DNA from: an uncultured Clostridia bacterium
Lineage (GTDB): Bacteria > Bacillota > Peptococcia > Peptococcales > Peptococcaceae
Assembly: GCA_944391625.1 (NCBI GenBank)
Contig: CALXUG010000004.1
Location: 1 to 64,000 of the forward strand
Reading direction: 5' to 3'
Length of the DNA stretch: 64,000 bases
Below, one piece after another: positions 254 to 52,404 of this stretch (position 1 is the stretch's first letter; each line of letters opens with the position of its first letter). Under the pieces are notes generated by a model. That model worked only from the letters and a program-made list of their open reading frames with translations, made no database searches and was not told where the DNA came from. The translations under genes and the position numbers were made by a program.

Positions 254-2458
254 ATGGATTTGTCACAGTTGAATATGCCCCAGCGGGAAGCGGTGGAGTG
301 TACGGAAGGGCCTTTGCTGATTCTGGCTGGCGCTGGTTCTGGCAAGACCAGAGTGCTGACAACGCGGATTGCCTATTTGATTTATGAAAAGCGGGTAGCG
401 CCATGGAATATTTTGGCCATTACGTTTACCAATAAAGCGGCGCAGGAGATGCGGGAACGGATCGTGTCGCTGGTTGGGCAGGATGGAGAAAAGGTTTGGG
501 CCAGCACCTTTCATTCTACCTGTGTAAGAATTTTGCGCAATGAAATTTCTTATATTGGATATGACACCAATTTTGTTATTTATGATGACAGCGACCAGCA
601 GACGTTGCTGAAAATGATACTGAAAGAGTTGAATCTGGACGAAAAAAAATATCCGCCTCGCGGTGCAGCGGCAAGAATTTCTGCCCATAAAAATGAGCTG
701 CGCACGCCGCAGCAGGCGCATTTTGCTGCTGAGGGCGATTTTTTAGAGGAACAGCATGCAGAAATTTACCGCATTTATCAGGAGCGATTAAAGCAGAATA
801 ATGCGGTAGATTTTGATGATTTGATTATGCTGACGGTGCAGCTTTTTTCTGAAAATCCTGATGTATTGCAGCGGTATCAGGAACGATTCCGCTATATTCT
901 GGTGGATGAGTACCAGGATACCAATATGGCCCAGTATGTGCTGGTAAAACTGTTGGCCAGCCGCTATCAGAATCTGTGCGTGGTGGGGGATGATGACCAG
1001 TCTATTTATCAGTGGCGCGGCGCGGATATTCGCAATATTCTCAGTTTTGAGGAGGATTATCCTTCTGCCCGGGTGGTGAAACTGGAAGAAAACTATCGTT
1101 CTACCCAGAGTATTTTAGATGCGGCTTACAGTGTGGTATGCCGCAACACAGGCCGCAAAGATAAACGGCTCTGGACAGAAAAAAAAGAAGGCAGTCAGCT
1201 GGCTTGCTATACCGGATATACGGAGAAAGAGGAAGCCTATTTTATTGCCCGGCAGATTCGGGCAGGGCTGCAGGATGGCCGCCGATTAAAGGATTTTGCT
1301 ATTTTGTGCCGGGCGACGGCCCAGTTCCGTGCGCTGGAAGAAACGCTGATTAAAGAGAACATTGCCTATCATATTTTTGGCGGACAAAAGTTCTATGGCC
1401 GCAAAGAAATTAAGGATATTATGGCTTATCTGCGGATCATCTCCAATCCTGCTGATGAAGTCAGCGCAGAGCGGGCTTTGGCCACACCGCGCAGAGGTGT
1501 GGGGGATACCAGCTGGATGCGGTTGATGCAGTTTGCCCGGGAGGAAAACATTGCGGTATCCGATGCGTTGATTCGGGCCGAGGAAAGCGGCGCCGGTAAA
1601 AAGTACGCTTTGATTATGGCCCAGTTTGGCCGTTTGCTGGACACATTCCGGTTGTTAAGCCAGACTATGAGCGTTACCGAACTGACCCAGACTGTATTGG
1701 AGGAAAGCGGATATTTGCAGGCGCTGCAGGCTGAAAAAACAGTGGAGGCAGAAACCCGCCTGGAAAACCTGAAAGAATTTTTATCTATTACTACCGCTTT
1801 TGATACCCGTGAGGATAATGAAGGGGCAACGCTGTCTGCCTTTTTGGCTGAAGTGGCGCTGTTTACCGATTTGGATCAGATGGATGGAGAGGAAGATTCG
1901 GTCACCATTATGACCATGCACGGCGCCAAAGGGCTGGAGTTTCCAGTGGTATTTGTAACCGGTATGGAGGAAGGGGTATTTCCGCATGCCCGGGCGGTGC
2001 ATTCGCTGGACCCAGATGAAATGGAAGAAGAACGCCGTCTGTGCTATGTGGCGCTGACTCGGGCTAAGGAGCAGGTTTATCTGACTCGCGCCGGGGAACG
2101 GATGCTGTATGGCCGCAGCAATTATAATCCGGCTTCCCGTTTTCTGCGGGAGATTCCTGCGGAACTTTTGCTGGATATGAATCAGCAAACAGCGCAAAAA
2201 CGGGCTGCTGAGCGCAAAAGCACAGCGCCTTCCCTGGGTGCTGCCGGTGTGGCTGCGCCGGTAAAGGCAGCAGGCAGCACAGCCGCAGCTTTTACAGACT
2301 ATCAGATCAATGATACCGTTGAGCATAAAAAGTGGGGACAGGGTGTGATCGTGGGGGTCTCCGGCAGCGGAGAAGAGTTATCCCTGCGGGTTATTTTTCC
2401 CGATATTGGCATGAAGGATTTGTTTGTTAAATATGCGCCTATTCACAAGGTGGAATGA
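254..2458 (+). CDS. pcrA: ATP-dependent 3'-5' DNA helicase PcrA (UvrD/Rep family)
   Basis: Superfamily 1A helicase of 734 residues, the usual PcrA length. Walker A GAGSGKT is at residues 26-32, the Walker B/DEXX motif VDEYQDT at about 217-223, followed by GDDDQSIYQWRGAD, LEENYRS and VALTRAKEQ (motifs III to VI). The C-terminal ~50 residues (WGQGVIVGVSGSGEE) match the Tudor-like domain by which PcrA binds RNA polymerase. It unwinds DNA in repair and clears protein and transcription roadblocks. The ATG start is supported by a GGGGG ribosome site. It is first in a pcrA-ligA-gatCAB order that is common in Firmicutes. Confidence 0.97.
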   Translation: MDLSQLNMPQREAVECTEGPLLILAGAGSGKTRVLTTRIAYLIYEKRVAPWNILAITFTNKAAQEMRERIVSLVGQDGEKVWASTFHSTCVRILRNEISYIGYDTNFVIYDDSDQQTLLKMILKELNLDEKKYPPRGAAARISAHKNELRTPQQAHFAAEGDFLEEQHAEIYRIYQERLKQNNAVDFDDLIMLTVQLFSENPDVLQRYQERFRYILVDEYQDTNMAQYVLVKLLASRYQNLCVVGDDDQSIYQWRGADIRNILSFEEDYPSARVVKLEENYRSTQSILDAAYSVVCRNTGRKDKRLWTEKKEGSQLACYTGYTEKEEAYFIARQIRAGLQDGRRLKDFAILCRATAQFRALEETLIKENIAYHIFGGQKFYGRKEIKDIMAYLRIISNPADEVSAERALATPRRGVGDTSWMRLMQFAREENIAVSDALIRAEESGAGKKYALIMAQFGRLLDTFRLLSQTMSVTELTQTVLEESGYLQALQAEKTVEAETRLENLKEFLSITTAFDTREDNEGATLSAFLAEVALFTDLDQMDGEEDSVTIMTMHGAKGLEFPVVFVTGMEEGVFPHARAVHSLDPDEMEEERRLCYVALTRAKEQVYLTRAGERMLYGRSNYNPASRFLREIPAELLLDMNQQTAQKRAAERKSTAPSLGAAGVAAPVKAAGSTAAAFTDYQINDTVEHKKWGQGVIVGVSGSGEELSLRVIFPDIGMKDLFVKYAPIHKVE

Positions 2459-2501
2459 GGGCAATACAGTAAAAATTTGTGTGACAGGAAAGAACAGATA
2501 A

Positions 2502-4544
<2,043 letters not shown>

Positions 4545-4594: not shown

Positions 4595-4876
4595 ATGGAA
4601 AGAGAAGCGTTGAGAAGATTGTGTTTGCTCAACCAGCTCAGTTTGACAGACACGCAAAAAGATGATGTGATAAGCTTTTTTGCAGAGCGTGATGCGGATA
4701 CCGCAACGTTGGATGCAATTGATACTGAACATGTGGAGAGAATGGTGCATGTGATGCCGATTCTTACCGTTGTTCGTGAGGATGGGGCGTGTCAGCCTTT
4801 CTCCCGTGAAGATCTGCAGGCAGGCGCACCGGAAACCGATGAAGGGTACTGGTGTGTACCTCGTGTGCTTGAATAA
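4595..4876 (+). CDS. GatC-like subunit of a second, divergent GatCAB set
   Basis: Small GatC-family protein of 93 residues, alignable end to end with the canonical GatC at 7764 (HVMPILTVVREDG against HVLPIENVFREDD, and a VPRVL/VPKIV ending). GatC normally wraps around GatA and GatB and stabilises the tRNA amidotransferase. Start ATG 4595 follows AAGGGGTG. It is 50 bp downstream of ligA and 11 bp before the degenerate gatA, so it is probably translated as part of that set. It is more diverged than the second copy. Confidence 0.85.
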   Translation: MEREALRRLCLLNQLSLTDTQKDDVISFFAERDADTATLDAIDTEHVERMVHVMPILTVVREDGACQPFSREDLQAGAPETDEGYWCVPRVLE

Positions 4877-4887
4877 GGAGGAGCTAT

Positions 4888-6069
4888 ATGAGTATTTATA
4901 TGATGAAGCAGGAAACGGCTGAAGCCAAAGCAGTCGTTGTGGATGATATGTTTCTTACAACAGATATGCCTACCACTGCAGGTTCCAAAATGCTGGAAGG
5001 CTATAACAGCCTGTTTGAAGCTGAGGTGCTGACACGGCTGAAAAATGCAGGGTATGCTGTTGCAGGGAAAACCAAGGTTGGTGAATTTGGCGTTGACTTG
5101 TTGGGTGAAACCTGTTATTTTGGTGCAGAATATGAGGGCGAATCCTTACAGTATCCTGCAGCGTTGGCTGTGAAAAACGGCGATGGAAAGGCAGCTGTCG
5201 TTTTAGATGTAAACGGCGCTCCAAGAAGAGGCGCTGCTCAGAGCGGTTTAGTGGCGCTTAAACCGACATACGGCAGAGTGTCCCGTTACGGAACCATTCC
5301 GGTGGCTTGCTCCGGTGAGACAGTGAGTGTGATTGCAAACAATGGGACTGATTGCCGTGAAGTGTTCTGTGCGATGGCAGGTCATGACAGCAAAGATGGA
5401 ACTTCTCTGCCGGAGAGCATGACAGAGCAGGGGAAGGCCGCTGTGAACAAAAGGAATAAGGTTGCAGTATTGTCCTCTATGCTGAAAGGTGTGAATGAAG
5501 AGGTACAGGCAAAGATTGCAGCTGCTGCTGAACAGCTGAGCAAAAACGGCGTTGAGGTGGTTACCATAGATGCCCAAACAGTTGCTTATGCAGGTGCTGC
5601 CTGGAATATTCTGATGTCCGCAGAGCTTTGCAACAATGTATCCCGTTATGATGGTGTGAAATATGGATACCGTACCAAAAACTATACCAATATTGACGAA
5701 CTTTATACTAATTCCCGTACAGAAGCATTTGGTGATTTTCTGAAATCTGCTATTCTGTTCGGTTCCGAAACCTTGTCTACCGAAAACTACAGTAAAGTGT
5801 ACGACAAAGCAATGCGGGTAAGAAGAGTGATCCGCGATGATATGGCTGCTATGCTTGCCGACTGTGATGCGTTGCTGATGCCTGCCGTAAGTACGCTTTC
5901 CTATGACAGGACTTTGGTAGAACGTGATAAATACTTGCCTTACAAGGAAAATTTCTTTACAGCTCCTGCGTCTATTACAGGGTTTCCTGTTGTGGTAGCA
6001 GGCGGCGTGCAGCTTGTGGGAAATGCCTTCTCTGAGGAGCTGCTCCTTGACTTGGCAGAGCTTGTGTAA
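4888..6069 (+). CDS. Degenerate GatA-like protein lacking the amidase triad
   Basis: GatA homologue of 393 residues (canonical copy 488). Recognisable blocks are SKMLEGY, LVALKPTYGRVSRYG and NVSRYDGVKYGYR, shared with the GatA at 8058. The amidase catalytic residues are not conserved: the AVKDN lysine is replaced in AVVVDDMF (V18), the GGSSGGS loop carrying the cis-serine reads ESLQYPA, and the nucleophile in DTGGSIRQ is an alanine in DVNGAPRR. The frame is open with a good AAGGAGGAGC ribosome site, so this is not simple decay. It probably cannot release ammonia from glutamine; a structural or regulatory role with its GatB and GatC partners is an inference. Confidence 0.85.
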   Translation: MSIYMMKQETAEAKAVVVDDMFLTTDMPTTAGSKMLEGYNSLFEAEVLTRLKNAGYAVAGKTKVGEFGVDLLGETCYFGAEYEGESLQYPAALAVKNGDGKAAVVLDVNGAPRRGAAQSGLVALKPTYGRVSRYGTIPVACSGETVSVIANNGTDCREVFCAMAGHDSKDGTSLPESMTEQGKAAVNKRNKVAVLSSMLKGVNEEVQAKIAAAAEQLSKNGVEVVTIDAQTVAYAGAAWNILMSAELCNNVSRYDGVKYGYRTKNYTNIDELYTNSRTEAFGDFLKSAILFGSETLSTENYSKVYDKAMRVRRVIRDDMAAMLADCDALLMPAVSTLSYDRTLVERDKYLPYKENFFTAPASITGFPVVVAGGVQLVGNAFSEELLLDLAELV

Positions 6070-6086
6070 AGGAGGAAACCAATAAG

Positions 6087-7526
6087 ATGAAATACGAAAC
6101 CGTCATTGGCTTGGAAGTTCACGTTGAACTTGCAACCGAATCTAAAATATTCTGCTCTTGCTCCGCCCATTCTTTTGGCGCTGAGCCCAACTCCCATGTA
6201 TGCCCTGCTTGCTGCGGGATGCCGGGTATGCTGCCGGTAGTAAACCGCCGTGTAGTCGATTTTGGTATGAAAGCGGGGATGATGCTGAACTGTGATATTA
6301 ACCGTGTTACAACCTTTGATAAAAAAAGCTATTACTATCCTGACCTGCCGGGTGCCTATCAGACTACACAATGGTTTGCGCCTGTGGCAGTCAATGGCCG
6401 CGTGGATATTGAAACCTCTGCAGGCAAGAAGAGCGTTCGTATTAAACAGATTCACATGGAAGAAGACGCAGGAAAGCTGGTTCATGATATCAGCGAAGGG
6501 ACAACCCATGTGGACTTTAACCGCACCAGCGTTCCGCTGATTGAAATTGTAAGCCAGCCGGATCTTTCCAGTGCAGAAGAAGTGGAAGCATATTTGGTGC
6601 GTTTGAGAACCTTGTTGCGCTATGCCAAGGTTGCAGAATGTGAGATGGCCCATGGTACCATGCGCTGCGACGTAAACCTGTCGGTAAGACCTGCGGGCAG
6701 TGATGTTCTGGGCGTTCGTACCGAGATGAAAAACATGAACTCTATCGAAGCCATCAAACGTGCCATCGAATTTGAAACAGCAAGACACATTGATGCTCTG
6801 GAGAACGGGACAGAAGTTCTGGTTCAGGAAACCCGCCGTTGGGATGATGCCAAAGGAAAAAGCTATGCCATGAGAAACAAGGAAACAGCCGGCGATTATC
6901 GTTATTTCCCGGATCCAAACGTGATGCCTGTGGTGATCGATGATGCATGGTACGAAGCCATTCAAAATTCTGTTCCCGAATTTCCGGAGGTAAAACGGGA
7001 GAAATATATCGCTCTTGGCCTTACCGAATATGATGCGGAACGAATCAGCGAAAGCATCATGCTCTGTGAATGTTTTGAAGAAGCCAGCGAAGCGTGCGGC
7101 AATCCAAAAGAAGTGGTAAACTGGATTACTTCCGATGTTATGCGTATCCTCAATGCTAAAAAGATGACCTATGAAATGCTGAATCTGGACAATCAGGCAT
7201 TGGGGAAATTGATTTCTTTGACTGGGGATGGCAAAATCAGCCGTGCCAACAGTAAAAAAATTCTCAGCGCCATGTTTGATGATCGCAGCATTGATCCGGA
7301 GGCCTATGCAGAAGCCAATGATATGCTGATCGGGGAACAAAATGACGATATGATTCTTGATGTTGTGAAAAAAGTGATTGAGGCTGATCCAAAATCGGTA
7401 AATGATTTTAAAAACGGCAAAGAAAAAGCATTGATGGCATTATTCGGCAAATGTATGAAGGAATTGAAAGGTAACTGTGATCCGCAGCAATTAAAAGTTA
7501 TCTTGCTGGAGTGCATCAACGGATAA
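6087..7526 (+). CDS. GatB-like subunit of the second GatCAB set
   Basis: Full-length GatB homologue (479 residues). It begins YETVIGLEVHVEL, keeps the zinc-type cysteines (CSC...CPACC), the HMEEDAGKL kinase-domain motif, [14 protein letters not shown] and a C-terminal YqeY-like helical region. GatB activates the misacylated Glu-tRNA(Gln) or Asp-tRNA(Asn) with ATP before amidation. Here the partner GatA is catalytically degenerate, so kinase activity may persist without glutaminase activity. RBS AAAGGAGGAAACC precedes the ATG. Last gene of the pcrA-ligA-gatCAB run. Confidence 0.9.
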   Translation: MKYETVIGLEVHVELATESKIFCSCSAHSFGAEPNSHVCPACCGMPGMLPVVNRRVVDFGMKAGMMLNCDINRVTTFDKKSYYYPDLPGAYQTTQWFAPVAVNGRVDIETSAGKKSVRIKQIHMEEDAGKLVHDISEGTTHVDFNRTSVPLIEIVSQPDLSSAEEVEAYLVRLRTLLRYAKVAECEMAHGTMRCDVNLSVRPAGSDVLGVRTEMKNMNSIEAIKRAIEFETARHIDALENGTEVLVQETRRWDDAKGKSYAMRNKETAGDYRYFPDPNVMPVVIDDAWYEAIQNSVPEFPEVKREKYIALGLTEYDAERISESIMLCECFEEASEACGNPKEVVNWITSDVMRILNAKKMTYEMLNLDNQALGKLISLTGDGKISRANSKKILSAMFDDRSIDPEAYAEANDMLIGEQNDDMILDVVKKVIEADPKSVNDFKNGKEKALMALFGKCMKELKGNCDPQQLKVILLECING

Positions 7527-7763: not shown

Positions 7764-8045
7764 ATGATAAGCAAAGAAGTCGTAGAAAAAGTTGCCAAAC
7801 TGAGCCGTTTGAATCTGGATGAGGCAGAGATTGCCCTTTATGCAGAGCAGTTGAGTCAGATTCTGGATACTATGGAAGGCTTACAGCAGATTGATACTGA
7901 CGGTGTGGTGCCGTTGGCCCATGTGCTGCCCATTGAAAATGTGTTCCGTGAAGATGACGTGGGACAGTGCTTTCGTCAGGAAGAAGTATTGGCTAATGCA
8001 CCAGAACAGTCTGACGGCATGTTCCAGGTACCAAAAATCGTATAA
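7764..8045 (+). CDS. gatC: Asp-tRNA(Asn)/Glu-tRNA(Gln) amidotransferase subunit C
   Basis: GatC of 93 residues with the family pattern of an N-terminal helix (VEKVAKLSRLNL), a linker (LAHVLPIENVFREDD) and a VPKIV end. It holds GatA and GatB together in the heterotrimer that converts Glu-tRNA(Gln) to Gln-tRNA(Gln) and Asp-tRNA(Asn) to Asn-tRNA(Asn). RBS ACAGGAGGCG is 9 nt before the ATG. First gene of the canonical gatCAB operon, behind a promoter and terminator that suggest attenuation. Confidence 0.95.
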   Translation: MISKEVVEKVAKLSRLNLDEAEIALYAEQLSQILDTMEGLQQIDTDGVVPLAHVLPIENVFREDDVGQCFRQEEVLANAPEQSDGMFQVPKIV

Positions 8046-8057
8046 GGGGGAAGAATC

Positions 8058-9524
8058 GTGACAATATCCAGACTAACGATTCATGAACTGCATGAACTGC
8101 TGGTTAAAAAAGAAATCAGCGCTGTGGAGCTGACCCGGGAACACCTGGATCGGATCCAGAAACTAGATGGCGATGTAAAAGCCTATATCACCGTAACTGA
8201 TCAGTTGGCGCTGGAACAGGCCAAAGCAGTAGATGCAAAAATATCTGCCGGAGAATCCATTGGCACGCTGGCCGGGATTCCTATGGCAGTGAAAGATAAT
8301 CTATGTACAAAAGGGATCAATACTACCTGTGCTTCAAAAATGCTGGACGGCTTTCAGCCACAGTACAGCGCTACTGTTGTTCATAAATTGCAGGCAGAAA
8401 ATGCGATCCTGTTGGGCAAAGCCAACATGGACGAGTTTGCCATGGGTTCTACCACAGAAAACTCTGCCTTTTTTGCTACCAAAAATCCATGGAATGCAGA
8501 CTGTGTGCCCGGTGGTTCCAGCGGCGGATCTGCTGCTGCTGTAGCGGCAGATTTGGCGGTGTATTCTCTGGGATCTGATACAGGCGGATCAATTCGTCAG
8601 CCGGCTTCTTTCTGCGGTATTGTTGGCTTAAAACCAACTTACGGTGCAGTTTCCCGTTTTGGGCTGATTGCCTTTGCTTCTTCGCTGGATCAGATTGGGC
8701 CGCTGGCCAAAGATGTAACCGATACTGCGTTGATTTTAAATGCCATTACCGGCTATGATAAGCAGGACTCCACCTCTGCCAAATATGATTATCCTGATTA
8801 CACCAAAGCGCTGACCGGAGATGTCAAAGGGCTGCGCATCGGTTTGCCGAAAGAATATCTGGGCGAAGGGATTGATCCTGAAGTAGAAGCGCAGGTACGG
8901 GCAGCAGCAGCCAAGCTGGAAGAATTAGGCGCTGTGGTAGAGGAATGCTCTCTGCCGTATACGCGGTATGCGATGCCCGCCTATTATTTAATTGCGCCGG
9001 CAGAAGCCAGTTCCAATCTGGGACGTTATGATGGTGTGCGTTACGGCTTGCGGGTGCAGGCCAAAGATGTGGTGGACATGTTCTGTGATACCAGAAAGCA
9101 GGGCTTCGGTGCCGAAGTAAAACGGCGGATTATGCTGGGCACTTATGCGCTGAGTTCCGGTTATTATGATGCTTACTATTTGAAGGCATTGAAAGTGCGG
9201 AATCTGATTAAACAGGATTATGATCAGGCATTTGCCAAATATGATTGTCTGATTGCGCCGACTGCGCCGACCACTGCACTGCACAAAGGGCAGAACCAGG
9301 ACCCGCTGGCGTTGTATAAAGGGGATATTTGCACCATTCCGAGTAATCTGGCCGGGATTCCGGCTTTGTCGCTGCCGTATGGTCTGGATAAAAATCAGAT
9401 GCCTATCGGTGTGCAGCTGCTGGGAAAAGCTTTTGCTGAACCTACTTTGCTGCAGGTTGCTTATGCGCTGGAGCAAAATACAACATTGACCAGATTAAAA
9501 CCAAACCAGGGGAAGGGGCTGTAA
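8058..9524 (+). CDS. gatA: Asp-tRNA(Asn)/Glu-tRNA(Gln) amidotransferase subunit A
   Basis: Canonical GatA, 488 residues. It is an amidase-signature enzyme that hydrolyses glutamine and channels ammonia to GatB. The Ser-cisSer-Lys triad is intact: K79 in AVKDN, S154 in GGSSGGS and S178 in DTGGSIRQ, the same numbering as the structurally known Staphylococcus aureus GatA. GTG start with AAGGGGGAAG ribosome site; 12 bp after gatC and 3 bp before gatB. This is the active copy that the degenerate GatA at 4888 should be compared with. Confidence 0.97.
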
Positions 9525-9527
9525 CTC

Positions 9528-10973
9528 ATGGAGTATGAAGTAGTCATCGGCTGCGAAGTCCACGTAGAATTAAAAACGAAAACAAAAATTTTCTGTAGTT
9601 GTCCTACCGATTTTGGCGGCGCACCCAACACACATGTCTGCCCGGTTTGCCTGGGATTGCCTGGCACATTGCCGGTGCTGAATAAAAAAGTGCTGGAATA
9701 TGCCATCAAAGCCGGATTGGCAATGAATTGCGAAATTGCCCATTTTAGTAAATTTGACCGTAAAAATTATTTTTATCCCGATTTAACCAAAGCATATCAG
9801 ATTTCTCAGTTTGATTTGCCGATTTGTAAAAACGGATATATTGATATAGAAACCAGTCAGGGAGCAAAACGAATCGGGATTACCCGCATTCATATGGAAG
9901 AAGATGCCGGTAAACTGGTGCATCAGGGTGCAACCATTACCACATCTGCCGGTTCTCTGGCGGATTATAACCGTGCCGGTGTGCCGCTGATTGAAATTGT
10001 ATCCGAACCGGATATGCGCAGTGCGGAAGATGTGATGGCTTTTCTGACCAATTTGAAAGCCATTATTGAATATACCGGTGTATCGGATGCCCGCATGGAG
10101 CAGGGTTCCTTGCGCTGCGATGTGAATCTGTCGCTGCGTCCGGTAGGACAGGAAGTCTTTGGTACCCGGGCCGAAATTAAAAATCTGAACTCGTTCCGTG
10201 CAGTAGAACGGGTTGTAAAATATGAAATTGAACGGCAGACCGAAATTCTGGAAGCGGGCGGCAAAGTGGTGCAGGAAACACGCACCTGGGATGATGGCAA
10301 GGGTATCACCTTAAGCCTGCGCAGCAAAGAGGATTCAGATGAATATCGTTACTTCCCCGATCCGGATTTGACGCCGATTATAGTTACCGATGCCTATATC
10401 GAAGAATTGCGCGCCAGCCTGCCGGAAATGCCGCAGGTAAAACGGCAGCGCATGATGGAGGAAGATGGTCTGCCTGCCTATGATGCCGGTGTCATTACCG
10501 CCTCCAAGGCGCTGGCAGATTTCTATGATGGCGTACATGCCCATTATAACGATACCAAAAAAATCAGCAACTGGATTATGGTAGAGCTGTTGGCGAAAGT
10601 CAATGCTGAAGGTATTGAGCTGGCTGATGTGAAAATCAGACCGGAACAGATGGCAGCATTGTTAAAATTGATTGATGCCGGTGAAATCAGTGGTAAAATT
10701 GCCAAGAAGGTATTTGGTGAAATGTTTGCAACCGGCAAAGATGCAGAAGCGATTATCAAAGAACAGGGGCTGGTGCAGATTTCTGATGAAGGTGCACTGA
10801 AAGAAATGGTGGCCGCTGTGGTAGAAGCCAATCCAAAATCGGTAGAGGATTACAAAGCCGGTAAGAAAAAGGCCATGGGCTTTTTGGTCGGTCAGATTAT
10901 GAAAGCATCTAAAGGGCAGGCCAATCCGGCTGTGATCAATCAATTGCTGACAGAAAAATTAGACAGTATGTAA
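9528..10973 (+). CDS. gatB: Asp-tRNA(Asn)/Glu-tRNA(Gln) amidotransferase subunit B
   Basis: GatB kinase/transamidase subunit, 481 residues. It has [13 protein letters not shown] at the N terminus, zinc-type cysteines (CSC...CPVC), [12 protein letters not shown] and a C-terminal YqeY tail domain that contacts tRNA. It phosphorylates the tRNA-bound carboxylate and uses ammonia delivered by GatA. The start is 3 nt after the gatA stop, implying translational coupling. A bidirectional terminator follows. Confidence 0.97.
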
Positions 10974-11083: not shown

Positions 11084-12076
11084 TCAAATAGTCAACGCAT
11101 TTTTTAGATCCTGTGCAGTGATGCCGACAGGACACTGCCAATGCAGTGCATCCCATTGAGCATGCTCCAACTGATAAGGGGTGTGCAGATTGGCCAATGC
11201 CAGCGATTTACAGGTCAGCGGTGCCGGAATAGGCTGATGGTCATGCAGCAGCTGCTGTAAGGCTGCGGTGCACTGACCGCATTCCAGACATTGCAGCAGT
11301 TTGCCCTTTCCATGGGAGAGCAGCTGACTGCGCCCGTTATCCAGCAGGATAATATGCACCTCTAAGGGGCCATGCATACCGCAGACGATAATCCCTTCAA
11401 TGTCACCGGTACGGCTGGGCCCTGTGATATAAGAATAATACACCGGCGGGTTCTGGCGGGAACCGGCGCTCCAGGCTACATGGATACTTTCCAGCGCAGC
11501 CTCGTTAGATGGATAAAGTTTTTCCAGCCCCATAACAGCCAGATGGCGGGTTGGGATATTGGAGACCAGGCGGCCGTTGCCCTGGTCTTCGGCTAAAATG
11601 ACGGTGCCGGTGTCGGCAGCAATGCCATCTGCGCCGGTAATCCCCCAATCTGCCTGGTCTGCTGCAGCTTTCATTTTTTGTTTGAGCGCTGGAAGCAGTT
11701 GCTCCGGCGGCACAGTCTGGCCCAGATATTGCTGTAGTGCTTGCACAATTTGAGATTGCTCCGTGTCATCTAGCGGCGCGCGGCGCGGATTGTAGTAAGG
11801 GCGTTCTAAAGTCTGTGCAACAACTGCTTCCAAGTCTGTCTGCATGGCCTGCGGGAGTATCTGCTGCAGGTGGATTTCTTCCAGTTCGGGCGCAAAGGTG
11901 CAGACGGTGTTTGTCTGTCTGCAAAGTTCACTGATGAGCGCAGCTGCTTCGGCAGCGTCTTGAGCTATATGAACGACACAGCCTTTTTCCGTTAATGTAT
12001 CGATGGCCTGTTTGAGCAGCCGGGTGTGCTGCTCTATCCGTTGCTGTGCCATAGTTTGAGCATGGTAACATGTCAT
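11084..12076 (-). CDS. LUD-domain protein, LutC-like
   Basis: LUD (lactate utilisation) domain protein of 330 residues. The signature WGITGADGIAADTGTVILAEDQGNGRLVS and the downstream HIILLDNGR block match LutC/YkgG. It probably assists the LutAB iron-sulfur complex that oxidises L-lactate to pyruvate. The ATG at 12076 has GGAGGCGGAG before it and overlaps the stop of the upstream lutB-lutA fusion (ATGA), so the two are translationally coupled. Oddity: near the C terminus it carries CLECGQC, a three-cysteine remnant of the ferredoxin motif present in the partner, without the fourth cysteine. Confidence 0.85.
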   Translation of the reverse strand: MTCYHAQTMAQQRIEQHTRLLKQAIDTLTEKGCVVHIAQDAAEAAALISELCRQTNTVCTFAPELEEIHLQQILPQAMQTDLEAVVAQTLERPYYNPRRAPLDDTEQSQIVQALQQYLGQTVPPEQLLPALKQKMKAAADQADWGITGADGIAADTGTVILAEDQGNGRLVSNIPTRHLAVMGLEKLYPSNEAALESIHVAWSAGSRQNPPVYYSYITGPSRTGDIEGIIVCGMHGPLEVHIILLDNGRSQLLSHGKGKLLQCLECGQCTAALQQLLHDHQPIPAPLTCKSLALANLHTPYQLEHAQWDALHWQCPVGITAQDLKNALTI

Positions 12077-14250
12077 TGATCTCCGCCTCCTTGTCGATAT
12101 GCTGCGGCTAACAGGCTGACCAGGTGAACAGCCTGCTGCTGACTGTGATTGCGGTGGAGTCCGTCTTTTAAATGCATCAGACATCCGGGACAGCCTGTGA
12201 CTGCATACTGGGCATTGGTGTCAGCAATCTGCGCGATTTTTTCGTCGTTGACACTGCGGGATACGTCATAATGAAACAGACTGAAACTGCCGCCAAAGCC
12301 GCAGCAGCTGTCCGGCGATTTCATTTCCTGCAAGGTCAGCCCCAGCTGCTGCAACAGTTGACGAGGTTCCTGGGAAATGTGCAGTCCGCGTATCAGATGG
12401 CAGGGATCATGCCAGGTGACGGTGCAGCTATCCTTTAACAATGGCGGCTGAATCTGCAGCACATGCACCAGATAATCGCTGAAATCAATCACTTTACGCT
12501 GTATGGCTTGATATTGTTCCAGCAGCTGTTGGTCTCCACAATCTGCCAGCAGCGTTTCCCACTGTTCTTTGACGGTGGTGGCGCAGGACGGGCAGAGAAA
12601 GATCAGATAATCATAATCTTCCGCGCTGAGAGCCTGGATATTTTTTTGCGCCATGGTGCGGGCTGCGGCAGTATCGCCGCTCATAATGGCAGGAAGACCG
12701 CAGCAGGCTTCCTGTGCAATGGTCAGCATCTGCACCTGGTTGGCCATGAGAATATCGTAACAGTCCACACCCAGCTGCGGGTAAGCATAATTGACCATGC
12801 AGCCGGCGAACAGCGCTACCCTTTGCCGCGGATGCTTTAGCGGCGCTTTGTTGCGCAGCCGTTCAGGCAGGGATTGACTGGATAAGGTGGGCAGCAGCCG
12901 TTCCTGTGGCATACCGGCTATGCCCAATTTTTCCAAATTAAAACGCAGATGTGCGTCCTGCTGCTGTTGCTTTAAGGCAATACCCTGTACTTGCCGGCCG
13001 ATTTTGGTCAAGGGCTTCAGTGCATTGGCGCCCAGTAAGGAAAAAACGGTATCTTTCATCCAACCGTTGCCTTCTGTGCGGGCTTTTTCTTCACGCAGCT
13101 GCAAAATCATCTGCGGTACGGGCATATGGAGCGGGCAGGTGTCGATACATCGCTGACAGCCGATACAGAGTGATAGGCCTGCTTCCTCCAGCTTTTCTGA
13201 TTGGTTGGTGTGAAAAGCAGTAAACACAGTGCCGCGGCCGCCGAGATATTTATAGCCGAATTGGTCGCCGATGGCGCTGTAAACCGGACAGGTGTTGAGA
13301 CAACTGCCGCAGTTCAGGCAATACAGAACCGACTGACAGCCGGCGTCAATGGCCTGTTGCCGTCCTTGCTTTAGTAAAATGACATGGACTGCTTGCGGCC
13401 CTTGCCCGCTCTGCAGAAAATCCATAGCCGGGTGGGAGAAATGGCTGACTCCGTCGATAATGGAAACATAAGTACCGATATCCTGTCCGCAGCCATAGGT
13501 GGAGGCGCTGCGCACAACGGTGAGACCGTCGGCAAAGTGGGGCACAATTTTTTCAATACCGGCGATGACGATATGGATAGACGGCATGCTGGTGACACAG
13601 CGAATATTGCCTTCGTTTTCAGTCAAAAAGACAGCGCCGGTGTCGGCTGCAATGGCATTGGCACCGGAGATGCCCACCTCTGCCTGCAAGAATACAGCAC
13701 GCAACGCACGACGAGCAGCACCTACTAATAATTCAGGATCGTCTGACAGTGTTTCCTGCAAATCCTGGGCCAAAAGTTGGGCGCATTCCACTCTGGCCAG
13801 ATGGCAGGCCGGTGCTAATGTGTGAGCCGATTTTCCCTTACCTTCCAATTGAGCTAGGCGATCACCCAGGTCGGTTTCGTAAACGGTGGCGCCTTGCTGC
13901 TGTAAACGGCTGGTGACGGCAATTTCTTTTCCGGTGTTGGTCTTGGATTTGACTACCAACCCATCGCCCACCAGGTTGGCAATATACTCTGCCGCCGCCT
14001 GATTATCCTCCGCCAGATATACCTGAAATCCCCGCTGTTCCATGGCGGCAATGGCCTGGGGCAGTAATTGATCCAGATTAGCAATGGCAGTTTCTTTTAT
14101 CTGCTGCAAAGCCGGTGACAGTTCGGGATGGGCCTGCACGGTGCGGACGATGCCGGGCCGCAGATGGTCGATGGTTGTATGTCGGCCAATCCAAGCAGGA
14201 TGATCCTGCAGTCCGGCGTTAATTTTTTGTTGTAATATCCCATTGGACAT
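12073..14250 (-). CDS. LutB-LutA fusion: LUD + 2x[4Fe-4S] + two CCG domains
   Basis: A 725-residue fusion. The first ~300 residues are a LUD domain (VGISGANAIAADTGAVFLTENEGN). Two ferredoxin-like motifs follow, CLNCGSCLNTCP and CIGCQRCIDTCP, as in LutB. The C-terminal ~280 residues carry two cysteine-rich CCG domains (FAGCMVNY...CCGLPA and HDPCHL...CCGFGGSF), as in LutA/GlpC/HdrB proteins. In Bacillus these are separate lutA and lutB genes. The likely role is electron transfer from lactate or a related 2-hydroxyacid. ATG 14250 follows GGAGGAATCACC. First gene of a two-gene operon with lutC. Confidence 0.88.
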   Translation of the reverse strand: MSNGILQQKINAGLQDHPAWIGRHTTIDHLRPGIVRTVQAHPELSPALQQIKETAIANLDQLLPQAIAAMEQRGFQVYLAEDNQAAAEYIANLVGDGLVVKSKTNTGKEIAVTSRLQQQGATVYETDLGDRLAQLEGKGKSAHTLAPACHLARVECAQLLAQDLQETLSDDPELLVGAARRALRAVFLQAEVGISGANAIAADTGAVFLTENEGNIRCVTSMPSIHIVIAGIEKIVPHFADGLTVVRSASTYGCGQDIGTYVSIIDGVSHFSHPAMDFLQSGQGPQAVHVILLKQGRQQAIDAGCQSVLYCLNCGSCLNTCPVYSAIGDQFGYKYLGGRGTVFTAFHTNQSEKLEEAGLSLCIGCQRCIDTCPLHMPVPQMILQLREEKARTEGNGWMKDTVFSLLGANALKPLTKIGRQVQGIALKQQQQDAHLRFNLEKLGIAGMPQERLLPTLSSQSLPERLRNKAPLKHPRQRVALFAGCMVNYAYPQLGVDCYDILMANQVQMLTIAQEACCGLPAIMSGDTAAARTMAQKNIQALSAEDYDYLIFLCPSCATTVKEQWETLLADCGDQQLLEQYQAIQRKVIDFSDYLVHVLQIQPPLLKDSCTVTWHDPCHLIRGLHISQEPRQLLQQLGLTLQEMKSPDSCCGFGGSFSLFHYDVSRSVNDEKIAQIADTNAQYAVTGCPGCLMHLKDGLHRNHSQQQAVHLVSLLAAAYRQGGGDQ

Positions 14251-14295
14251 GGTGATTCCTCCATTTTCCATTGATATTGATTGTCAGAACATTTT

Positions 14296-36924: not shown

Positions 36925-36972
36925 TTACAATGTTACCGCCCCAATACTGGTAACAGAAAGGGGGCGTCTAAA

Positions 36973-37065
36973 ATAGAAATCCTTGCAGTTTTAATGATTA
37001 CTGTCATGGCAAATGTAACTAGCCACTACATTTGCAAATGGCTAGACGGTAAGAAGAAACGGTAA
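36973..37065 (+). pseudogene. Type I toxin-like peptide, unit 3, with ATA in place of ATG
   Basis: The frame aligned with unit 2 starts at ATA (36973) after AAAGGGGGCG. It encodes EILAVLMITVMANV and ends HYICKWLDGKKKR. Either the start codon was lost (ATG to ATA), or translation begins at ATA or the internal ATG at 36994, which would remove a third of the span. Promoter, hairpin and antisense promoter are intact. It may be attenuated or inactive. Confidence 0.6.
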
Positions 37066-37094
37066 CTAGCCTAGTCTATATGGACTATAAAAAG

Positions 37095-37163
37095 AAAACC
37101 CCAGTATGCCAGTACTGGGGTTTTCGTGTCTAAAACAGAACATCCTTGCAATGCTCTTTGCCT
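37095..37163 (-). ncRNA. Predicted antisense RNA (antitoxin), unit 3
   Basis: Minus-strand promoter TTGCAA-17 bp-TATACT (37198 down to 37170); the transcript ends at the AAAACCCCAGTA/TACTGGGGTTTT hairpin (37095-37124). Confidence 0.65.
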
Positions 37164-42654: not shown

Positions 42655-43114
42655 GTGCGCCCAGCATGTGCGCAGTCTAAAGGGTGAAAGTCCCGAAGCC
42701 GTCCCGTAGCGGGAAGGCAATAGTGGAACCTCAAGGGTGGAGTGTTACAAACTGGCGAAGATGGAGAAATTACTAAAAAGCATCGATGCATGGATGAGAA
42801 GAAGAATTCGCATGAATATCTGGAAGATGTGGAAGAAAACACGAACTAGATATACAAATCTTGAGAAACTGGGAATCAGCCATGAAAATGCAGGGGCCTT
42901 CGCAAATAGAAGAAAAGGCTGCTGGAGATTATCCAGTAGCCCGACTTTGCAAGCAGCCCTCTCTAACAAGCGATTAGAGAAAGCAGGCTATTTGTTTTTC
43001 AATTGTTATTACAAATCTGTAAAAGTATAAACTATGGAACCGCCGTATACCGAACGGTACGTACGGTGGTGTGAGAGGTCGGCTATTCAACTAATGAATA
43101 GCCTCCTACTCGAT
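42655..43114 (+). mobile_element. Internally deleted group II intron
   Basis: The 5-prime end GTGCGCCCAGCATG and AAAGGGTGAAAGTCCC are the group II intron start and domain I. The 3-prime part has the domain V-like GTACGTACGGTGG and a domain VI hairpin GGCTATTCA/TGAATAGCC, ending CTACTCGAT. Only ~460 bp remain where ~2 kb is normal, so most of domains I-IV is gone. It sits just after an intrinsic terminator, the habit of class C introns. Confidence 0.85.
42737..43030 (+). pseudogene. Group II intron reverse transcriptase/maturase, C-terminal remnant
   Basis: The frame contains the maturase X-domain tail: LKSIDAWMRRRIRMNIWKMWKK, LEKLGISHENAGAFANRRKG, SPTLQAALSNKRLEKAGYLF. The RT finger/palm (including the YADD motif) is missing. 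Only about 90 of ~430-600 residues remain, inside the deleted intron. Confidence 0.88.
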
Positions 43115-47819: not shown

Positions 47820-48060
47820 GGAATTTTGGCAAAGGATAGGTCAGCCTTATGTGCGCAAAGCAGGGAGATGTTTTGTTGCCGTTGTCGAGATTGAAACGGA
47901 CAGATGCGCAGTCTGTCTAGCTGAACTGGACGCAGTCCAAAGTGAAGCAGACCGACAAGCAGATGTCTGTTGAACGAGGGCAGGCAACAAACATTCTCCC
48001 AATAATGCAGTATCGTAAACAAAATTGTTTCACGTGAAACACCGTTATTGACCAAATGAA
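47820..48060 (-). repeat. parS-containing repeat (family P), copy 1
   Basis: Inverted copy of 57121-57372 at roughly 85-90% by eye, running from the parS site to GGAATTTTGGC. It contains TGGACGCAGTCCA, the same hairpin core as family A. The open frame here (VSRET... / MFHVKQ...) is a translation of repeat DNA, not a gene. Confidence 0.85.
48026..48041. promoter_or_regulatory. parS site (ParB/Spo0J binding), site 1
   Basis: TGTTTCACGTGAAACA, a perfect 16-bp palindrome identical to the widely conserved bacterial parS consensus. Confidence 0.93.
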
Positions 48061-48091
48061 TCGCAAAGGGTAAGAATTTATCCATGGTAGG

Positions 48092-48177
48092 AGGGCAGGC
48101 AACAAACAGTCTCCCGATAATGTAGCATCGCAAATAAAATTGTTTCACGTGAAACATCGTTATTAACCAAATGAAAT
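48092..48177 (-). repeat. parS-containing repeat (family P), short copy 2
   Basis: Matches the parS-proximal ~85 bp of copy 1 (GAGGGCAGGCAACAAAC to ACCAAATGAA), in tandem with it. Confidence 0.85.
48141..48156. promoter_or_regulatory. parS site, site 2
   Basis: TGTTTCACGTGAAACA, perfect; 115 bp from site 1. Confidence 0.93.
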
Positions 48178-48211
48178 GGCAAACAGCAGGAGTTAAATAA
48201 TATATAATGTA

Positions 48212-48392
48212 TCGGACAATATCTGTTGCAGTGTCCACACGCTGCTCTGGACAGCAGCTGCACGTATTTTTGTCGCTTTGGACTGCGTCCAGCTTCATAA
48301 AATACGTTTGCTACAGTTCATCCAGAGGTGGACTTTCTGCAAAGATATTGCCCTCTTAGCGATTTTGGCGAAATGTTTTGATGGATGGGGTG
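48212..48392 (+). repeat. Dispersed hairpin repeat (family A), copy
   Basis: Starts TCGGACAATATCTGTTGCAG; same variant as 47499. The 5-prime end is truncated relative to the full copies. Together with that copy it brackets the two parS sites. Confidence 0.85.
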
Positions 48393-48542
48393 CAGGGTAG
48401 CAATTAAAAAACTTTTTGGAACAGGTGGGGATAACAGTTGCTTTTTGCAGGGTATTCTTGTAAAATGTATTTGATATAGACCTATGCAAATGTATGGGCG
48501 GATGTCCTATCTAATCTGCCTGTTTCTTGAACAAAAAGGGGG

Positions 48543-48571
48543 TTGACATGCTTGAAACTCCGCAATACACT
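48543..48571 (+). promoter_or_regulatory. Candidate promoter before the SLH protein gene
   Basis: TTGACA-17 bp-TACACT; predicted transcription starts inside the ACAG repeat. Confidence 0.6.
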
Positions 48572-48572
48572 T

Positions 48573-48620
<48 letters not shown>

Positions 48621-48750
48621 TTTGCTGTGCAAATAAGGCTGAAACGCTCTATCCGAAGGGCGCGTTCTGCCTGTGGGTTTTCCACGGACGGGATGCGTCC
48701 TTTTTGTGTCTATCTGTAAAAAATAAATATATGAAAGGAAATCAGAACAG

Positions 48751-51700
48751 ATGAAAATGAAGAAACGATTATTGAGCCTGCTGCTCTGCTGTGCTATGCT
48801 GTTTTCACTCTGCCCCCAGGTGGTATCTGCCGAGGGCGTACGGAACAGCGAACAAGCCATAGGCGGCCTATGTGAACACCAACCGGCGCTGCTATCTGTG
48901 CAGGCCCTTATTGATGCCCTCCCCACGGCGGAGGCGCTGGCCGCTATGAGCCGGGAGGAACAGGATGCGGTCTATGCCGACCTGCAGGCGGCCTATGAAG
49001 CATACGAGGCCCTGACCGACGAGGGACAACAGGAAGTCACCGGCGCGGAGATTTTTGACGGCCTGTTTGCAGTGTTCAATGGAATGACAAATACTTTGGC
49101 GGACAGCGGCTTTACAGTTGGGGGCGGCGAGAGCGGAACGGACTACGAACTTGACAATGATACGCTGACCATCAATAACAATACACCCCTGACCATCTCC
49201 GGAGGAACTGCGGAAAGTCCCATCACCGGGCAGATCGTGATTGCGGAAAATGTCAATGCCGACCTGAAGCTGGAAGGGGTAAATATCAGCGCCCCGAACG
49301 GCAAGAGTGCTATCGAGTTGTCCGACCACTCCAGCCTGACGCTGACCCTGCCCCAAAACGCCGTGAACACCCTGGCAGGCGCCGCCGGCACAACAGATAG
49401 CGGCGCCCCCGGCATCCACGTCCCGCAGAATGCTGCGCTGACCGTTCTGTGTGCAGCGGCCGGGGACGATAGCGGCCATATTTGCGGTAGCAGCTGTGCG
49501 AAATTAACGATTCAAGGCGGTTCATCTACAACTGGTTTCGGAGGCGTTGGGATCGGCGGAGGTATTACGATAACCAGTGCAGGAAGTTCTACTGGCCAGC
49601 CCTGCGGCACAGTTCTCCTTCTGGGCGGGGTTATTACAGTCACGGGTGGCATTGGCTCCGGCAACGGTAAAGCCCAGGACATCGGCGGCAGCGATGGCAG
49701 CGGCACCGGCGCAACTGGCGGAGCCGGAGGTACAGTCATCATCCTGACCGGCGTGCAGAACAGCAGCGGCTCTCTTGATATTGGCGGTGGACATGGAAGT
49801 GAAAATGTCGACAATGGTGCGGGCATCAAGCCCAGTACCGGCAGCAATACTTACGAGGTCTACGGAAGCCTGACCTTGCCGGACGACCTCACCATCCCCG
49901 CAGGCGTGACCGTGAACATCCCCAGCGGGACCACCCTGACCGTCCCCTCCGGCACGACGCTCACCAACTACGGCAGCATCACCGGAGCGGGGACGCTTGG
50001 AAATGGTGGGACATTCGTCAATCACGGCACAGTCAATGTCACGACCAACAACTTCAATAACAACACGGTAGTCGGGGCGTTCAACATCACCGGCGGTTCA
50101 TCAGGCACCGCCTATACCTACTCCGATGGCGTGCTGACCGTCAACAATGGCGCTAACATCACCATTTCCATGTCGAACGGGGGCACCGACCCCACCAGCG
50201 ACCGCATCGTGATCGCCCAGAGCGCCACGGCGACCATCACTCTGGATGGGGTGGAGATCAAAGCGCCGCAGCAAACGAGTGCGATTGATCTTTCCTCCGG
50301 CTCCAAACTGACCTTGATTTTGCCCACCAACTCAACGAGTAGCCTGGAGGGGGGAACCTGGGACAGCAGTGACCTTAGCGGAAACAGTTCCGGCTGTGCT
50401 GGCATCCATGTTCCCGTTGGCGCTGAACTCAATATCCAATGTTCTGAAACAGATACGCACAAATGCTTGGAAGCCTCTTGCGGCAAATTGTCTGTAAAAG
50501 GAGAAGTGAAAAGTGCGGGCATTGGCGGCAATGGAAACGAGGGGTGCGGCACTGTCGTCATTGATAGCGGCGTCGTGACCGTTATCGGAAGTACCGCTGG
50601 TATTGGCGGAGGCGACCACGGTAGTGGCGGAAATGTGACGATCAACGGCGGAATTGTTACCGCTACCGGCAACTCCGGTGCAGGCATCGGCGGTGCGGGT
50701 AGCACTGGTCCTGGAGAAACGATCACCATCACCGGCGGCATCGTGACGGCTACTGGCGCTGGCGGCGGCGCCGGCATTGGCGGTGGCTGGGAGAGCACGG
50801 GTGGCACAGTCATCATCACCGGCGGCATCGTGCAGGCCACCGTTGCCGCCCAAGGTTACAATGGTGCCGGTATCGGCGGCGGACATGCGGCGACAGACAA
50901 CGGCACATTCAGCACCAGCACTGACTCCGCCACCGGCAACGCCGTGATTTTCGCCAGCAGCAACCTCGTCGGCAACGAAATCGGCGATGATGACGACACC
51001 TCCGGCTGGAGCGGCGTGATCTTCCAGGGCGCCCAGGGCTTTGTGTACGGCAAGGTCACCCTGACCGACAGCTTCACCATTCCCAGCGGCTACACCCTCA
51101 CTATCCCCAACGGAGCCACACTGACCATTCCGGATGGCGTCACCATCACCAACAATGGCACGATAGATGTGGTAGACGGCGGCAAAATCGAACCGGAGAG
51201 CCGGGTGAACGGCACTGTCCGCCAGTTCTATACCGTGACCTTTGACGCAAATGGGCACGGGACGGCCCCGAAGGAAACCCTTGTCCTCAAGAACGGCTAT
51301 ATCACCCAGCCCACCGCCCCGACAGCAGACGGCTACACCTTCGGCGGCTGGTACAAGGACGCGGACTGCACGACGGCTTGGAATTTTGACACCAATACCG
51401 TTACAGAAAAAACGATCCTGTACGCCAAGTGGACTCGGAACAGCTCCGGCGGTGGCGGCACCAGCTATGATTATTTCACCATCACCGCCAGTGCGGGAGC
51501 GGGCGGCTCCATCTCCCCGTCCGGCAGTGTCAGCGTCCGGGAGAGCGGGGACAAGATCTTTACCATCACCCCGGACAGCGGCTATCGTATTTCCTATGTG
51601 TTGGCGGACGGAAAGCGCGTGGGCGCGGTAGAAAGCTATACCTTTGAGGACGTGCAGAAAGGGCATACCATTGAGGCGGTATTCGCAAAGGAAAATCCGA

Positions 51701-52257
51701 GTAGGGGCGGCAACCCCTTTACCGACGTTAAGGAGAGCGATTGGTTTTATGGCGATGCGATGTTTGTCTATGAAAAGGGCCTGATGTCCGGCACCAGTAT
51801 CGCCGCCTTTGAACCAAACGCCAACACCACCCGCGCACAGATGGCAGCCATCTTCTGCCGGCTGGACGGCTCCCCCGCTGTGGAGGGCCGGAACAATTAC
51901 ACCGATGTGGAGTATGGCTCTTGGTACTATGACGCGGTGACATGGGCTCGGCAGAGCGGTGTTATGAGCGGCTACGGCAACAACCTGTTCGGCCCCAATG
52001 ACCCCGTAACCCGTCAACAGCTTGCGGCGATGTTCTGCAACTATGCCAACTATAAGGGCTATGACGTAACCGCCGCAGGCGGCCTGTCCGGCTTTACCGA
52101 CGCAGGAGAAATCTCGCCGTGGGCGCAGGACGCTGTGAAATGGGCGGTGGGCATTGGTCTGATGAACGGCAAGGGCGGCGGCATACTTGATCCCCAGGGC
52201 ACTGCCACCCGCGCCGAAGTCGCAGCCATGCTCCATAATTTCATTGAACACAATTAG
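48751..52257 (+). CDS. Large secreted SLH-domain surface protein
   Basis: 1168 residues. A signal peptide ends near VVSA (residue 27). A helical segment follows (~45-110). Two copies of a Gly/Thr-rich beta module come next (GESGTDYELDNDTLTINNN and GGSSGTAYTYSDGVLTVNN as starts), with internal GIGGG-rich repeats that look like a beta-helix. An InlB-type B repeat (YTVTFDANGHGTAPKE...GWYKD) lies near 830-895. Three C-terminal SLH domains (FTDVKESDWFYG, YTDVEYGSWYYD, FTDAGEISPWAQ) bind secondary cell-wall polymer. It is clearly richer in G+C than its neighbours, suggesting transfer. ATG 48751; AAAGGAAAT upstream. Confidence 0.92.
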   Translation: MKMKKRLLSLLLCCAMLFSLCPQVVSAEGVRNSEQAIGGLCEHQPALLSVQALIDALPTAEALAAMSREEQDAVYADLQAAYEAYEALTDEGQQEVTGAEIFDGLFAVFNGMTNTLADSGFTVGGGESGTDYELDNDTLTINNNTPLTISGGTAESPITGQIVIAENVNADLKLEGVNISAPNGKSAIELSDHSSLTLTLPQNAVNTLAGAAGTTDSGAPGIHVPQNAALTVLCAAAGDDSGHICGSSCAKLTIQGGSSTTGFGGVGIGGGITITSAGSSTGQPCGTVLLLGGVITVTGGIGSGNGKAQDIGGSDGSGTGATGGAGGTVIILTGVQNSSGSLDIGGGHGSENVDNGAGIKPSTGSNTYEVYGSLTLPDDLTIPAGVTVNIPSGTTLTVPSGTTLTNYGSITGAGTLGNGGTFVNHGTVNVTTNNFNNNTVVGAFNITGGSSGTAYTYSDGVLTVNNGANITISMSNGGTDPTSDRIVIAQSATATITLDGVEIKAPQQTSAIDLSSGSKLTLILPTNSTSSLEGGTWDSSDLSGNSSGCAGIHVPVGAELNIQCSETDTHKCLEASCGKLSVKGEVKSAGIGGNGNEGCGTVVIDSGVVTVIGSTAGIGGGDHGSGGNVTINGGIVTATGNSGAGIGGAGSTGPGETITITGGIVTATGAGGGAGIGGGWESTGGTVIITGGIVQATVAAQGYNGAGIGGGHAATDNGTFSTSTDSATGNAVIFASSNLVGNEIGDDDDTSGWSGVIFQGAQGFVYGKVTLTDSFTIPSGYTLTIPNGATLTIPDGVTITNNGTIDVVDGGKIEPESRVNGTVRQFYTVTFDANGHGTAPKETLVLKNGYITQPTAPTADGYTFGGWYKDADCTTAWNFDTNTVTEKTILYAKWTRNSSGGGGTSYDYFTITASAGAGGSISPSGSVSVRESGDKIFTITPDSGYRISYVLADGKRVGAVESYTFEDVQKGHTIEAVFAKENPSRGGNPFTDVKESDWFYGDAMFVYEKGLMSGTSIAAFEPNANTTRAQMAAIFCRLDGSPAVEGRNNYTDVEYGSWYYDAVTWARQSGVMSGYGNNLFGPNDPVTRQQLAAMFCNYANYKGYDVTAAGGLSGFTDAGEISPWAQDAVKWAVGIGLMNGKGGGILDPQGTATRAEVAAMLHNFIEHN

Positions 52258-52303
52258 AAAAGGGACGCGGACAGTCGATGAACTGTTCGCGCCCCTTTTC
52301 TGT
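52258..52303 (+). terminator. Terminator after the SLH gene
   Basis: AAAAGGGACGCGGACAGT pairs with ACTGTTCGCGCCCCTTTT. Confidence 0.85.
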
Positions 52304-52404
52304 TTGACGGCTTTTTGAACTGTGTTCTCTGATGCGTTGTCATCCCTTCCGGCGTTTGGCAAAAAAACGAAAGCTGCCGGCAGGATGCCCTTGTAAAAAA
52401 TAGG

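Follow-up and report, generated by a model that had tools for sequence, protein, structure and literature searches.

Repeated loss of the glutaminase site in GatCAB-type tRNA amidotransferases that are probably fed by ammonia

A stretch of 64,000 nucleotides from an uncultured Clostridia bacterium (contig CALXUG010000004.1, positions 1 to 64,000; this whole stretch is referred to as the window) carries, directly upstream of an intact set of genes for the tRNA-dependent amidotransferase GatCAB, a second set, gatC2-gatA2-gatB2 (gatCAB2), in which the GatA subunit has lost its glutaminase site. The glutaminase-dead GatCAB is a real feature with repeated independent origins, and it is probably ammonia-fed. 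More specifically, we assign a probability of roughly 0.78 to the reading that gatCAB2 encodes an Asp-tRNA(Asn) amidotransferase that is fed by external ammonia and that, in its main hosts outside the genus of the window, constitutes the only visible route to Asn-tRNA. In canonical GatCAB, GatB phosphorylates Asp or Glu on the tRNA and then amidates it with ammonia that arrives from GatA via a tunnel; known tRNA-dependent amidotransferases have a glutaminase of their own and such a tunnel, which is held to be the way in which ammonia reaches the charged tRNA. In the proposed mechanism, GatA2 would be retained as a structural subunit, and GatB2 would activate the Asp side chain on tRNA(Asn) with ATP and subsequently amidate it, with ammonia that is free in solution or is supplied by another protein rather than by hydrolysis of Gln in GatA. 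In the main hosts a dedicated aspartyl-tRNA synthetase (AspRS2) would charge tRNA(Asn) with Asp, with the genes in one operon under a T-box that senses tRNA(Asn), while in the genus of the window gatCAB2 would run beside asparaginyl-tRNA synthetase (AsnRS) and the intact GatCAB, fed by a single AspRS of the non-discriminating type. No report of a glutaminase-dead GatCAB was found in the open papers searched, which is no proof that none exists.

The gatA2 gene (4888–6069, forward strand, as for all gat genes below) encodes a protein of 393 residues, which is 33% identical to its canonical neighbor GatA1 (gatA1, 8058–9524, 488 residues, 640 bits against TIGR00132) and 95 residues shorter. An earlier note on this DNA had described this shortened, yet open, frame and had assigned the triad K79, S154 and S178 to GatA1, both of which agree with our results; the GatA1 residues fall in the same register as in Staphylococcus (S.) aureus GatA. 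The same note had placed Val, Leu and Ala at the triad positions of GatA2, which is correct in part. In an alignment of the 36 members of the family, the window copy included, the column of the catalytic Lys79 holds Asp in all sequences (Asp19 in the window copy, codon 4942–4944, by alignment with GatA1), i.e., the Val was read one position off. The nucleophile Ser178 is replaced by Ala111 in the window copy (codon 5218–5220), as had been stated, and this column is variable across the family (A 13, S 11, T 8, Y 3, E 1). The position of Ser154 is found in a loop that is deleted or rebuilt, where most members have Leu (Leu 29, Ile 4, Tyr 2, gap 1). In addition, R358 of S. aureus GatA (R357 in GatA1) is replaced by Ala, Met, Thr or Val, and D425 (D423 in GatA1) mostly by Asn; these two residues bind Gln in S. 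aureus GatA. GatA2 is also truncated at both ends, by ~60 residues at the N terminus and by the C-terminal helix. As judged from these alignments, the entire glutaminase site of GatA2 is gone, not only the triad.

The remainder of GatA2 is predicted to be intact and well folded. The AlphaFold model has a mean confidence score (predicted local distance difference test, pLDDT) of 92. Among solved folds it comes closest to GatA chains, and it superimposes on yeast GatA with Z 48.7 and a root-mean-square deviation of 2.4 over 382 residues. In other words, GatA2 displays the overall fold of the amidase-signature enzymes and lacks their catalytic triad. One might consider that a rebuilt active site has preserved glutaminase activity in GatA2, given its strong conservation (57 invariant positions among the 36 sequences) and the family-specific Asp at position 79. 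This explanation is highly improbable because the triad, the cis-Ser loop and both Gln-binding residues were lost together, and because two further groups of GatA proteins, discussed below, broke the triad differently, which fits a relaxed need for glutamine better than a single new chemistry.

The other two subunits are recognized as such. GatC2 (gatC2, 4595–4876, 93 residues, a GatC-like subunit) scores 55.8 bits against TIGR00135 (cut-off 47.1) and 40.7 bits against the Pfam GatC family, and GatB2 (gatB2, 6087–7526, 479 residues), which comprises the kinase/amidating and tRNA-binding parts, scores 509 bits against TIGR00133, above the cut-off, whereas GatA2 stays below the equivalog cut-off of TIGR00132 (255 vs 481 bits). 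In a profile search GatB2 was far below the cut-off for GatE, i.e., it is a GatB. It retains the HMEEDAGK and Cys motifs, in agreement with the earlier note, together with 77 of the 89 positions at which canonical GatB does not vary (a position being counted as kept if found in >=90% of the members), and the 12 changed positions are mostly conservative exchanges; GatA2 retains only 49 of the 113 positions that are invariant in canonical GatA. Read position by position, it is mainly the glutaminase subunit that has lost conserved residues, which bears out the earlier proposal of a pseudo-amidase subunit combined with an intact kinase and tRNA-binding subunit.

The gatA2 gene is under purifying selection. 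Within the genus of the window, the pairwise ratio of nonsynonymous to synonymous substitution rates (dN/dS) is 0.09–0.12 (NG86) or 0.07–0.13 (YN00) for gatA2, 0.02–0.05 for gatB2 and 0.05–0.15 (NG86) for gatC2, to be compared with about 0.05 for gatA1. The shortened protein, and the absence of the copy in one genome of the genus (G003), could be taken to suggest a decaying duplicate without function, and the earlier note had regarded a dN/dS near 1 or absence from close relatives as signs of such decay. The values of about 0.1 for gatA2 are far from this limit, all three frames are open with no stop or frameshift in the window copy, and four other genomes of the genus retain gatA2 at 82–88% identity. 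Chance or nonfunctional decay is ruled out by these ratios together with the 31 further genomes outside the genus, within a family of 36 genomes, which leaves this explanation a negligible probability. The same gene set is found in independent metagenome-assembled genomes (MAGs), which also rules out an assembly error or a chimeric joining of two gatA genes. For most pairs within the genus, the synonymous divergence of gatC2, gatA2 and gatB2 is below that of the upstream genes pcrA or ligA (254–4544), which might result from codon bias (high expression) or from recent exchange.

The family was delineated by a scan with one genome per species, which yielded 35 further loci at 46–87% identity, all in uncultured Clostridia. 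Many host titles refer to the gut of herbivores (goat, sheep, roe deer, water deer, water buffalo, cattle and yak), an environment that is rich in free ammonia. The genes gatC2, gatA2 and gatB2 are adjacent and in this order in the window and at all 35 other loci (at L042 gatC2 is cut by the contig end). Outside the genus of the window, most loci are aspS-gatC2A2B2 operons, where aspS encodes AspRS2. T-box leaders were identified with Rfam before aspS, 26 distinct leaders in total, including that of L059 (L249 and L075 are one locus, whose leader was counted once), and the specifier is AAC, i.e., an Asn codon, in 26 of 26. At L059 the AAC T-box (5405–5626) is located right before gatC2, with no aspS between. 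No T-box was found at L071, L072 and L074, where the upstream sequence of L074 is short; the two family genomes that harbor AsnRS are those with L071 and L072.

Most of the hosts outside the genus harbor a second, general AspRS besides the operon-encoded AspRS2. The AspRS2 displays the motif RDHGG, as does the Pseudomonas (P.) aeruginosa enzyme labelled AspRS(Asp/Asn), and the general AspRS mostly displays RDLG, as do the AspRS of Escherichia coli and Thermus (T.) thermophilus. The residue at this site (His31/Leu31) is a marker of AspRS discrimination known from mutational work; the His marker is supportive, not proof, of the assignment of AspRS2 to the non-discriminating type. The tRNA(Asn)-type T-box and an AspRS of apparently non-discriminating type in the same operon suggest that the ordinary substrate of gatCAB2 is Asp-tRNA(Asn). 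At L048, a second divergent AspRS is encoded directly upstream of the aspS2-gatCAB2 operon (approximately 1377–3150), with 52% identity to AspRS2 and RKSKN in place of RDHGG; the Rfam T-box at this locus is positioned between the two aspS genes.

In the 31 hosts outside the genus, AsnRS was found above the cut-off in only two (G086 and G087) and was not detected in 29. Weak AsnRS-like matches in three genomes (G079, G082 and G089; L244–L246) were rejected; these proteins are archaeal-type aspartate--tRNA(Asn) ligases, an enzyme that accordingly occurs in gut Clostridia. An intact GatA was found in three of the 31 genomes (G061, G074 and G077) and in none of the other 28, and glutaminyl-tRNA synthetase (GlnRS) was found in 25 (in one case in pieces). 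None of the three genomes with an intact GatA has GlnRS, which is missing from only six of the 31 (Fisher p = 0.004, uncorrected for kinship), a distribution that is expected if an intact GatCAB serves Gln and the set with the dead GatA serves Asn. Apart from gatCAB2, most of the 31 hosts show no visible means of making Asn-tRNA(Asn), and the absence of AsnRS, the AAC T-box and the His-type AspRS, i.e., the marks of the indirect pathway to Asn-tRNA(Asn), are all found in the main hosts.

These data also bear on a role for the complex as a catalytically idle scaffold or regulator that would bind tRNA or AspRS and tune the intact GatCAB, which the earlier note had suggested along with action on another substrate. 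Pseudoenzymes often regulate active paralogues, and in the genus of the window the intact gatCAB set adjoins gatCAB2. For the family as a whole these suggestions find no support: an intact GatA, and with it an active set to be regulated, is missing from 28 of the 31 genomes outside the genus, the conserved positions of GatB2 are kept, and both the T-box and AspRS2 suggest that Asn-tRNA is made, with Asp-tRNA(Asn) as the substrate, which makes a scaffold or regulator improbable. A regulatory role may apply in the genus of the window, where AsnRS and the intact GatCAB coexist with gatCAB2.

With GatA dead, GatB conserved and no other visible route to Asn-tRNA, the simplest inference is that the ammonia is supplied externally. 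Yeast GatFAB accepts NH4Cl in vitro, and more so with a truncation beside the GatA site (PMC4027206). A different possibility is a glutaminase acting in trans, where the ammonia would be produced by an operon-linked amidohydrolase similar to asparaginase I, a functional parallel to GatD of the archaeal GatDE. In nine genomes such a gene is found next to the operon, with differing arrangements (L075:2465–3499, L071:522–1574, L199, L073, L061, L063, L056, L069 and L070); the best solved matches of the linked protein are type-I asparaginases, with GatD among the matches, and it retains the Thr of GGTI and the Thr-Asp of GTD. However, the third catalytic residue (Lys in asparaginases) is apparently lost in the linked proteins, most hosts have merely a more distant homologue elsewhere in the genome, and no asparaginase-I homologue was detected in the genome of the window, G001 or G003. 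A separate role in asparagine breakdown would also explain the proximity to genes for Asn. Supply in trans is considered unlikely, though less so than the alternatives discussed above.

Alteration of the GatA triad is not restricted to the gatCAB2 family. In a survey of 46 genomes of the class of the window, the GatA encoded at the pcrA-ligA-gatCAB site in the group f5 has K79 replaced by Ser or Thr and S154 by Ala in six genomes, and is intact in the relative G022. In the group f6 the Ser loop is altered in G039 and G045, K79 is replaced by Met in G039 and S178 by Ala in G042, and GatA is intact in G028 and G038. The loci with a broken triad are L201–L207 (G021, G023, G025, G027, G029 and G036) and L208–L210 (G039, G042 and G045), and the changes found there comprise K79S/T/M, S154A, S178D/A and the altered Ser loop. 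AsnRS is lacking in all nine genomes with an altered GatA, and the association of triad loss with absence of AsnRS across the class yields p = 8e-5 (uncorrected for kinship); GlnRS was detected in most of the nine, and no T-box was found at the f5 and f6 loci. The GatB proteins of these genomes, of which a subset was placed in the tree, group with canonical GatB, which indicates that these losses are events separate from that in the gatCAB2 family. As read from the alignments, the GatA triad has been lost independently in at least two lineages besides this family.

We consider it somewhat favored that there is a class of obligately ammonia-fed tRNA amidotransferases with at least three origins by inactivation of GatA in lineages that lack AsnRS, which would constitute the only translational source of Asn in many herbivore-gut Clostridia, with an asparaginase-like replacement possible in some hosts. 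If so, decoding of Asn codons would be tied directly to cellular ammonia, and the coupling of a glutaminase to a tunnel would be dispensable, possibly in ammonia-rich settings such as the herbivore gut. The family, in which the remainder of the complex is conserved and apparently essential, also offers a natural test of the roles of GatA besides ammonia production, and it illustrates that annotation of a gatA gene is not proof of a glutamine-dependent enzyme.

A number of points weigh against the assignment of gatCAB2 as an ammonia-fed Asp-tRNA(Asn) amidotransferase. The host genomes are nearly all incomplete MAGs; gaps may account for single absences, but hardly for a pattern that recurs throughout 31 genomes. 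The T-box specifiers were read by alignment to the Rfam consensus, and the His/Leu marker of AspRS is backed here by three PDB enzymes of known class only. Furthermore, in the genus of the window AsnRS, GlnRS and an intact GatCAB are present, AspRS2 and a T-box at the locus are absent, and G003 lacks gatCAB2 altogether, i.e., the set is not visibly needed there.

The genome of the window itself harbors AsnRS, GlnRS, AsnB and the intact GatCAB1, a single AspRS of the RDHGG (His) type and only two GatA genes, gatA1 and gatA2; a search of the window for T-boxes gave no match at the Rfam gathering score. AsnB was detected in G000 and G003, and not above the cut-off in G001 and G005. In the GatB2 tree the family forms a single clade with support 100, and the genus of the window is nested inside it beside two Oscillospiraceae/Clostridia MAGs. 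In G003 gatCAB1 is found directly after ligA, and in the window gatCAB2 is inserted between ligA and gatC1; this insertion and the nested position in the tree indicate that the genus probably gained gatCAB2 horizontally, without AspRS2 or the T-box. The tRNA(Asn) of the genus has the U1-A72 pair, which is required for amidation by the amidotransferase (PMC9976931, PMC4206432). With such a tRNA and an AspRS that looks non-discriminating, the substrate Asp-tRNA(Asn) should exist in this genome. The search for tRNA(Asn), by DNA pattern, yielded the gene in 19 of 49 genomes, and U1-A72 is common and weakly diagnostic; G072 has a tRNA-Asn(GTT) with G1-C72 (L222:1486–1562), which GatCAB should not amidate. 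Some bacteria that harbor AsnRS, GlnRS and GatCAB make Asn in a tRNA-dependent manner by GatCAB (PMC4206432). It is likely, though less certain than in the main hosts, that gatCAB2 acts as an ammonia-using Asp-tRNA(Asn) amidotransferase also in the genus of the window.

Compared with canonical GatCAB (S. aureus, 2df4 and 2f2a; Aquifex aeolicus, 3h0l), the gatCAB2 complex has the same subunits in the same C-A-B order, the GatA fold, and the kinase/amidation and tRNA-binding parts of GatB, but GatA2 lacks Lys-Ser-Ser, the Gln-binding Arg and Asp, the first ~60 residues and the last helix. In the main hosts an AspRS of non-discriminating type would be the partner of GatCAB, as in the Asn transamidosome (T. 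thermophilus, 3kfu; P. aeruginosa, 4wj3). A second AspRS that together with GatCAB makes Asn on tRNA is also found in Deinococcus and Thermus (PMC4206432), where, however, AspRS2 is archaeal-type and GatA is not reported to be inactive; here, AspRS2 is bacterial-type, in a T-box operon with a dead GatA. In archaeal GatDE, production of ammonia is likewise separate from the GatB/GatE kinase, and both GatD and the gene linked to the operon in some hosts are homologues of type-I asparaginase. GatE, in contrast, is specific for Glu-tRNA(Gln), and in the present family GatC and a dead GatA are kept, and the asparaginase-like partner occurs in only part of the hosts and is of uncertain activity. Another amidating enzyme that uses free ammonia, with relatives that have a glutaminase domain, is single-domain NadE, the ammonia-dependent NAD synthetase (PMC3376133). 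The ammonia-dependent form of NadE is thought to be ancestral, whereas the loss in gatCAB2 would be derived, since the glutaminase subunit persists as a dead protein.

The gene order in the window is pcrA, ligA (2529–4544, forward strand, the upstream anchor of gatCAB2 that was used in the comparison with G003), gatC2-gatA2-gatB2 and then gatC1 (7764–8045, 97.6 bits against TIGR00135), gatA1 and gatB1 (9528–10973, 622 bits against TIGR00133). Clear Shine-Dalgarno-like sequences precede gatA2 and gatB2. Downstream, at 11084–14271, two genes on the reverse strand resemble, as judged by eye, LutC/LutB-type (LUD domain) lactate utilization proteins. A group II intron domain was matched in Rfam at 43038–43114, and a marginal Rfam match to the Streptococcus small RNA SpF66 (42.9 bits, cut-off 42) is found at 36932–37134. 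The region 48000–54000 has a G+C content of 52–59%, compared with about 40% just upstream, and is possibly a foreign stretch.

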